Shown: positions 3,402 to 5,067 of the stretch, one piece after another | Layout of the letters: each line of letters begins with the position of its first letter | How positions within the stretch are numbered: position 1 is the first letter of the stretch | Source: Sulfurimonas sp. | Lineage (GTDB): Bacteria > Campylobacterota > Campylobacteria > Campylobacterales > Sulfurimonadaceae | Length of the DNA stretch: 32,031 nt | Direction: 5' to 3' | Assembly: GCA_021648405.1 (NCBI GenBank) | Contig: JAKISX010000014.1 | Coordinates: forward strand, 1-32,031 | Translations under genes and position numbers: made by a program | The notes under the pieces: generated by a model | Database searches by the model: none | Seen by the model: only the letters and a program-made list of their open reading frames with translations | What the model was told of the DNA's origin: nothing

Positions 3402-3431
3402 AAAGTTTAATATTAAATAATATTAAACTTT
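3402..3431. repeat. 14-bp perfect inverted repeat with 2-nt spacer at the tetR 3' end
   Basis: AAAGTTTAATATTA (3402-3415) aa TAATATTAAACTTT (3418-3431); overlaps the tetR stop codon and probably serves as its terminator. Confidence 0.7.
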
Positions 3432-4046
3432 GATGCTCTCCCAAAAATAATCCACATGTTTTTCAAATTGTGTAGATAGCATATCTGTAGATTTTGAATC
3501 AAAACGGAGTAGGGTAACTTGTAATCGAATATAAAATAAGGTAGAGATAAACTCATATGCCATTATCATTGGGTCTCCTGAGCGAACAAGTGAATTTTGC
3601 ATCATTATAAAGAATCCCTCAGCCAATATTTTTACATTTTTATCATGAAATTCACTCATAAACTGCTCTCTAAGCTCTCTATTTTGTAAAAGCTCTATCA
3701 TGAGCAACCTAAACATCTTCTCGCTATTCTTATCAAATGTAAGTAGTTTGTATTGTTGCGCGAATTTACTAATAAAAGCTTTACCTTTAAGCGCATTTTG
3801 TTTTATTTCCTCATCGTCAAATGAGAATGGAGTGGTAAATATATCTTTTGAAACTTCTAGAAATATATTTTCTTTATTTTTAAAATGATTATACAGAGCA
3901 CTCTGTTTAATTCCTATCTCTGATGCAATTTTTCGCACACTTGTACCTTTGTATCCGTATTCAGAGAATAGGGCAGTTGCGGCTTTTAATATCTTTTGTT
4001 TAGTTGTATTTTTTTTATGATGTTGCGTATTCATAGGCTTTTCCAT
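3423..4046 (-). CDS. TetR/AcrR-family transcriptional regulator
   Basis: TKQKILKAATALFSEYGYKGTSVRKIASEIGIKQSALYNHFKNKENIF is a canonical TetR HTH; start may be the internal Met at 4034. Confidence 0.92.
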   Translation of the reverse strand: MEKPMNTQHHKKNTTKQKILKAATALFSEYGYKGTSVRKIASEIGIKQSALYNHFKNKENIFLEVSKDIFTTPFSFDDEEIKQNALKGKAFISKFAQQYKLLTFDKNSEKMFRLLMIELLQNRELREQFMSEFHDKNVKILAEGFFIMMQNSLVRSGDPMIMAYEFISTLFYIRLQVTLLRFDSKSTDMLSTQFEKHVDYFWESIKV

Positions 4047-4060
4047 CTCTTTTTTTAATT

Positions 4061-4171
4061 ATGAACAGTTGTTAATTAATAATATATTATATATGAACAG
4101 TTGTTAATTTAAACTTATAAGCAATGAACGGTTGTTCATGTAAAGCAGGTACTAAAAGAACGACTGTTCAT
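4061..4171. promoter_or_regulatory. Array of four palindromic operator-like sites (ATGAAC-N4-GTTMAT)
   Basis: 4061-4076 ATGAACAGTTGTTAAT; 4093-4108 ATGAACAGTTGTTAAT; 4124-4139 ATGAACGGTTGTTCAT; 4156-4171 AAGAACGACTGTTCAT. Start-to-start spacing 32, 31, 32 bp. Confidence 0.8.
4086..4091 (-). promoter_or_regulatory. Putative -10 element of tetR
   Basis: TATAAT on the minus strand, located between operators 1 and 2. Confidence 0.4.
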
Positions 4172-4212: not shown

Positions 4213-4558
4213 CATAGGTGTAATAGATAGTTAATTGTATAGTTTTTTTGCAATAGGAAAGTCCGAGCTGCTATAAGAGAGTGTTCCATCTAACTGATGG
4301 CCAGCGTAAGCTGAGGGAAAGTGCAACAGAAATATTACAGCCACTTAATCGTGGTGATGGTGAAAAGGTGGTGTAAGAGACCACCAGCTTCTGTGGTAAC
4401 ACAGAGGGCTTGTAAACCCAACATGGCAGCAAGAAACAAATGGTTAGCCTCTTATATGGTATTTTAATACTATTGCTTTTGTTTCGCTAGAGATACTTTG
4501 TGAAAAGTATAGTAGATTAATGCTATCACTACAAAACTCGGCTTACATTACACCTGAA
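4213..4558 (+). ncRNA. rnpB: RNase P RNA (bacterial type A)
   Basis: P1 stem AGGTGTAAT(4216-4224)/ATTACACCT(4547-4555); conserved GGAAAGTCCGAGCT, GGGAAAGTGCAACAGAAA, CAGAGGGCTTGTAAACCC, and terminal ACTCGGCTTAC. Confidence 0.93.
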
Positions 4559-4639
4559 TTATATTAATATTAAAAAATATCAACCAACAAACAGGGCATA
4601 TTATGAAAAAAACAAGCACAGTTAGACTGCAGAAGAATC

Positions 4640-4807: not shown

Positions 4808-4827
4808 TTTTCAAGAGAATATACATT

Positions 4828-5067
4828 ATGTTAACCAACGAACAGGAGTATGTCACAATTATGACTAAAAAAGAAGAACTAATATTAGATATACAAAATT
4901 TATTAAATAATTATGACAATGTGCATTCTACAAGTATTAACCCAGATTTACTAAAATTTATGGATGAAAGTACTCTCATCTCTATTATAGATACTTTATT
5001 GACACAAAAAGAAAACAACAAAGAGTCAGATTTAGCATGGCTTGAATCATTTAAGAAAGTAAAATAG
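4828..5067 (+). CDS. Small hypothetical protein; start uncertain (4828 or 4861)
   Basis: MTKKEELILDIQNLLNNYDNVHSTSINPDLLKFMDESTLISIIDTLLTQKENNKESDLAWLESFKKVK; GGAG upstream of the 4861 ATG; directly precedes the response regulator. Confidence 0.6.
   Translation: MLTNEQEYVTIMTKKEELILDIQNLLNNYDNVHSTSINPDLLKFMDESTLISIIDTLLTQKENNKESDLAWLESFKKVK

Follow-up and report, generated by a model that had tools for sequence, protein, structure and literature searches.

The region analyzed here, a 32,031-nt stretch of a Sulfurimonas sp. contig (JAKISX010000014.1, assembly GCA_021648405.1; hereafter the window), carries on its minus strand an ORF of 207 aa, tetR (3423-4046), which we propose encodes the protein that binds an operator array upstream of the gene. 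Divergent from tetR is its neighbor rnpB, encoding the class A RNase P RNA (4215-4560, plus strand; Rfam RF00010, E=8e-71), and an unannotated XerCD-type dif site (4809-4840, plus strand, TTTCAAGAGAATATACATTATGTTAACCAACG) lies between rnpB and a small ORF (4861-5067). The array consists of four 16-bp palindromes, to which no strand is assigned: site 1 (4061-4076, ATGAACAGTTGTTAAT) is within the tetR leader, site 2 (4093-4108, again ATGAACAGTTGTTAAT) is within the -35/-10 spacer of the tetR promoter, site 3 is at 4124-4139 (ATGAACGGTTGTTCAT), and site 4 (4156-4171, AAGAACGACTGTTCAT) adjoins the rnpB promoter region; sites 1 and 3 are conserved in relatives. The palindromes, their starts at 4061, 4093, 4124 and 4156, and the resulting spacings of 32, 31 and 32 bp are present exactly as given in the initial annotation. 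Its description of the site form, which allowed a leading T, was right as to the palindromes, but none of them begins with T, and the right half of sites 1 and 2 reads GTTAAT. In the 32-kb window, these are the sole matches to ATGAAC-N4-GTTCAT with 0-1 mismatches; a search at three mismatches lists 19 sites, which is at chance level.

The features of TetR/AcrR family membership, an N-terminal HTH domain and a palindromic operator overlapping the protein's own promoter, are both found for the window protein. Pfam identified a TetR_N domain (PF00440, E=2e-17, 63 bits against a cut-off of 24), and the predicted fold is canonical and all-helical (pLDDT 86), with TetR proteins as the best structural matches. 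About 50 of the 59 genus genomes encode an ortholog (best matches 67-89% identical), and three or four like sites were found upstream of every genus ortholog examined, at spacings of 31-33 bp and once of 43 bp (locus L016). Beyond the genus, a three-site, sequence-only pattern in which the gaps were left free and all gap lengths allowed was applied to 400 Campylobacterales genomes, 92 of which proved to carry an array. The reversed pattern, used as a control, gave 0 matches, and the array is therefore far beyond chance. None of the 400 genomes had more than one array, and every array fetched was directly upstream of an orthologous tetR, across six families and with protein identity down to ~39%. 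Array and tetR co-occurred 1:1 over 142 loci, consistent with the earlier assignment of the sites to the adjacent TetR. Since arrays were found only upstream of orthologous tetR and at no other place, the array is tied to TetR, and the comparative data make it a well-supported prediction that TetR dimers bind the four 16-bp sites. The element apparently has been lost in some species of the genus, as the array was not found in the 99% complete genomes G040, G021, G303, G335 and G439, of which G021, G303 and G439 carry dif. Given that some near-complete genus members are without tetR and the array, the element is not essential.

The -10 element of the tetR promoter (TATAAT, 4086-4091, minus strand), already noted in the initial annotation, immediately follows site 2 when read along the tetR strand and is conserved in the genus. 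An operator is located between the -35 and -10 elements in families f1, f6 and f10, and in f6 and f10 TTGACA and TATAAT exactly flank the proximal operator. Because one operator falls within the -35/-10 spacer, TetR very likely represses tetR, and the autorepression suggested at the outset fits the promoter layout. An operator within the promoter spacer is also what would be expected of an ordinary TetR repressor that regulates itself through several operator sites, whose targets, if any, would be weaker sites elsewhere or would depend on an unknown ligand, and the canonical fold does resemble ordinary ligand-binding TetR repressors. Four phased sites nevertheless exceed what autorepression needs.

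Spacing was strongly phased. In 142 distinct upstream regions, the spacings were 22 bp (18 cases), 31-33 bp (260) and 42-43 bp (121), and at a period of 10.5 the mean vector length was 0.94 over the 142 distinct loci. True off-phase spacings numbered 2 among ~400 intervals (24 in L291 and 34 in L304), the other off-values in the count being weak or missed sites. Arrays in the window's family have three turns, Sulfurovum-type arrays (f6) mostly four, and Nitratiruptor-type arrays (f18) two or three, and mixed-turn arrays such as 43-33-43 and 22-33-22 occur. On the TetR tree, the turn class of the three intervals changed at least 6, 8 and 4 times, landing on whole turns bar two exceptions. The predicted helical phasing is thus borne out, with whole turns kept across families in relatives of the window. 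Arrays of the same core elsewhere in GTDB are irregularly spaced and without an orthologous TetR, bar one weak TetR match on a Treponemataceae contig, and were rejected as relatives of the TetR element. As these unrelated arrays are irregularly spaced, the phasing is not forced by the search pattern. The Treponemataceae locus (L288), in which three sites 35 bp apart lie at 367 beside a distant TetR-like reading frame, is possibly an independent multi-operator autoregulator. Separately, GAACATATGTTC repeats exactly 22 bp apart were observed on many contigs of the Bacteroidaceae MAG RGIG1657 (L238, L247, L255, L283, L298, L307), without a homologous TetR.

The initial annotation had also raised filament-like binding. 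Fixed contacts are a poor fit to an array that occurs with two-, three- and four-turn spacings, and a filament of touching dimers is unlikely, since the 42-43 bp spacing is kept as well as the 22 bp spacing. As the distance may shift by a turn while the phase may not, we infer that the dimers on an array probably work jointly by curving or looping the DNA, and not by way of fixed contacts between adjacent dimers.

We searched for other sites that TetR might bind. A two-site pattern gave no match outside the tetR locus in 16 genomes. Among non-array motif matches in nine genomes of the genus, 55 were inspected and 50 of the 55 were inside ORFs, in line with coding density. With neither a second array nor a pair in the genomes searched, and with single near-consensus sites elsewhere falling mostly within ORFs, we rejected a consensus-site regulon; no wider set of consensus targets emerged, although weak trans operators with two or more mismatches may exist. 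This confinement to one locus also bears on the possibility that the sites are SOS boxes. The core motif of the array is that of the Gram-positive LexA box (Cheo-type GAAC-N4-GTTC), but a LexA domain (PF01726) was not found in the window genome or in the array-bearing relatives tested, and the domain occurs in just 1 of the 60 genomes examined, a member of another family. An SOS function has next to no probability, and we rejected it despite the core-motif match. Clusters of at least three irregularly spaced GAAC-N4-GTTC boxes observed in Acidimicrobiales and other actinobacterial MAGs (L233, L242, L245, L263, L271, L274) are probably LexA boxes.

The placement of the array between tetR and rnpB, as annotated for the window, is correct there, but rnpB is a neighbor only within the window's family. 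It is divergent and adjacent in 12 of 12 genus loci tested and in some other genera of the family, and site 4 mostly stands 62-64 bp from the rnpB anchor, all of which would suit a TetR that governs rnpB from site 4 and an array that serves rnpB expression. The absence of rnpB beside tetR and the array in five other families makes this very improbable, and rnpB was rejected as the purpose of the array.

A different neighbor is kept. The window dif, which has 4 mismatches in 32 positions to the S. denitrificans dif, is the only match in the genome to the dif core pattern and is separated from the array by 638 bp, with rnpB between. A scan that covered both dif types, with reference sequences from PMC2731167, located dif on the same side of tetR as the array in 110 of the 142 loci, at distances of 41-1326 bp (median 454). 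The orientation of dif is the same in 109 of these 110 linked loci, and the linkage spans both XerCD/dif and XerH/difH lineages. Mismatches to dif were 0-7 at array loci compared with 9-14 at best in unrelated genus loci. The published dif sites of S. denitrificans, Sulfurovum NBC37-1 and Nitratiruptor SB155-2 lie beside arrays, their published coordinates being matched within one base, and in two other families the sequence adjoining the array is the published difH. In complete genomes, the array is near the middle of the chromosome record. The GC skew of the window changes sign near 18-22 kb, ~15 kb beyond dif, similar to the published offset of 12.9 kb in S. denitrificans. The window spans the replication terminus.

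The linkage is not absolute. Inserted DNA parts the array and dif in some genomes, by 1.5-20 kb in the majority of cases followed and by 32 kb in G325 and 80 kb in G365, so strict adjacency is not required. At least two genomes have a partial dif between the array and the intact dif, and such a pair of degenerate and intact dif sites between the array and the terminus is what a mobile element integrating at dif would be expected to leave behind. Degenerate and intact sites ~10.6 kb apart were observed at 611 and 11219 of L392 (genome G238) and at 136592 and 147250 of contig C9 of genome G056.

The gene order in families f4 and f18 is tetR, array, difH, xerH, and most of these loci have 54-118 bp between the array and difH. 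In the compact loci L096, L097, L100 and L101, xerH and tetR diverge from each other with the array and difH between them, and TetR could also affect xerH there. This order, together with phased sites that would suit a wrapped complex, raises the possibility that the array assists Xer recombination at dif as an accessory site, with DNA wrapping controlling synapsis in the manner of the ArgR/PepA sequences of cer. The cer and psi accessory sites likewise have a multi-dimer regulator complex beside an Xer core site, and cer requires ~180 bp of accessory DNA (PMC5357621). These are, however, plasmid sites, whereas the array accompanies a chromosomal dif often hundreds of bp to kb distant. A site of this type would be expected within ~200 bp of the Xer core, as in most f4 and f18 loci; in the window rnpB intervenes, and separations reach tens of kb elsewhere. 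In addition, relatives of the window use XerCD acting at classical dif (PMC2731167). We consider an accessory-site role improbable overall; it best fits f4 and f18, and for the window it is weak.

The strongest rival to a terminus function is inherited synteny around the ordinary autoregulator described above, in which proximity to dif would have no function. Neighbors can be kept by vertical inheritance, and dif and the array have drifted apart in some genomes. Against this, other neighbors changed between families while dif stayed: a methyltransferase gene follows tetR in Sulfurovum, murA is on different sides of the locus in different families, and the lasting neighbor pair across families is the array and dif. 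The lack of any array, pair or enriched intergenic consensus site elsewhere also argues against an ordinary repressor. We regard this explanation as a real possibility, though one more likely to be wrong than right.

Several known systems share features with the locus. TetR-family autoregulators have in common the TetR fold, the HTH and a palindromic operator in their own promoter spacer; the array differs in its three or four operators at whole turns across families, in having no other target found, and in its proximity to dif. In the RefZ-RBM system of Bacillus, a TetR-family protein also has sites at a conserved chromosomal position, but the RBMs are five dispersed sites near oriC, in contrast to the one cluster near the terminus here (PMC6657595). 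NCBIfam RefZ was a weak best NCBIfam match to the window TetR (51 bits, cut-off 180), and identity with RefZ was rejected given a score far below the cut-off and one array per genome with no second pair. Structure comparison gave no particular likeness of the predicted fold to SlmA or RefZ. The nucleoid occlusion factor SlmA resembles the element we propose in being a TetR-family DNA binder that is not mainly a transcription regulator. SlmA sites are dispersed and avoid Ter, unlike the single array per genome in the terminus, and we rejected a SlmA-like system on this distribution. MatP-matS of Enterobacteria likewise forms a sequence-specific complex in the terminus region, but MatP is not a TetR protein and its numerous matS sites are scattered throughout the Ter domain; here, the protein is TetR by Pfam and the sites form one cluster, and membership in the MatP-matS system was rejected. 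We found no description of a link between TetR and dif, or of a TetR array beside dif, in the open-access literature.

Taken as a whole, the best explanation is that TetR forms a self-regulated nucleoprotein element at the replication terminus, an account that seems to us about evenly poised between right and wrong. TetR dimers would occupy the 16-bp operators on one helix face, and the dimer bound in the -35/-10 spacer would repress tetR, holding the dose of TetR low. The TetR-DNA complex itself would be the working object, either as a mark of the terminus or as a nucleoprotein complex that aids the last steps of segregation or division. While the TetR-operator part of this explanation is well supported, we infer the function of the complex at the terminus with less confidence, from the observations that this locus seems to be the one place bound and that dif accompanies it under two different Xer systems. 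The loosened linkage in some genomes and the absence of tetR from some members of the genus argue against a strict requirement. More tentatively, and with somewhat less than an even chance of being correct, these loci may represent a previously undescribed terminus system of Campylobacterota in which TetR on a single phased array beside dif acts in segregation, dimer resolution or division instead of controlling a regulon, and in which the geometry of one multi-dimer complex would set the phase-locked spacing of two, three or four turns.

The series of 22, 32 and 42 bp is a rare evolutionary demonstration of selection on operator phase rather than distance, and places limits on how multi-dimer TetR complexes can be modeled. 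To our knowledge, MatP-like factors are not known in these sulfur-oxidising bacteria. The conserved TetR array beside dif offers a single locus at which terminus organisation can be tested in this widespread group.
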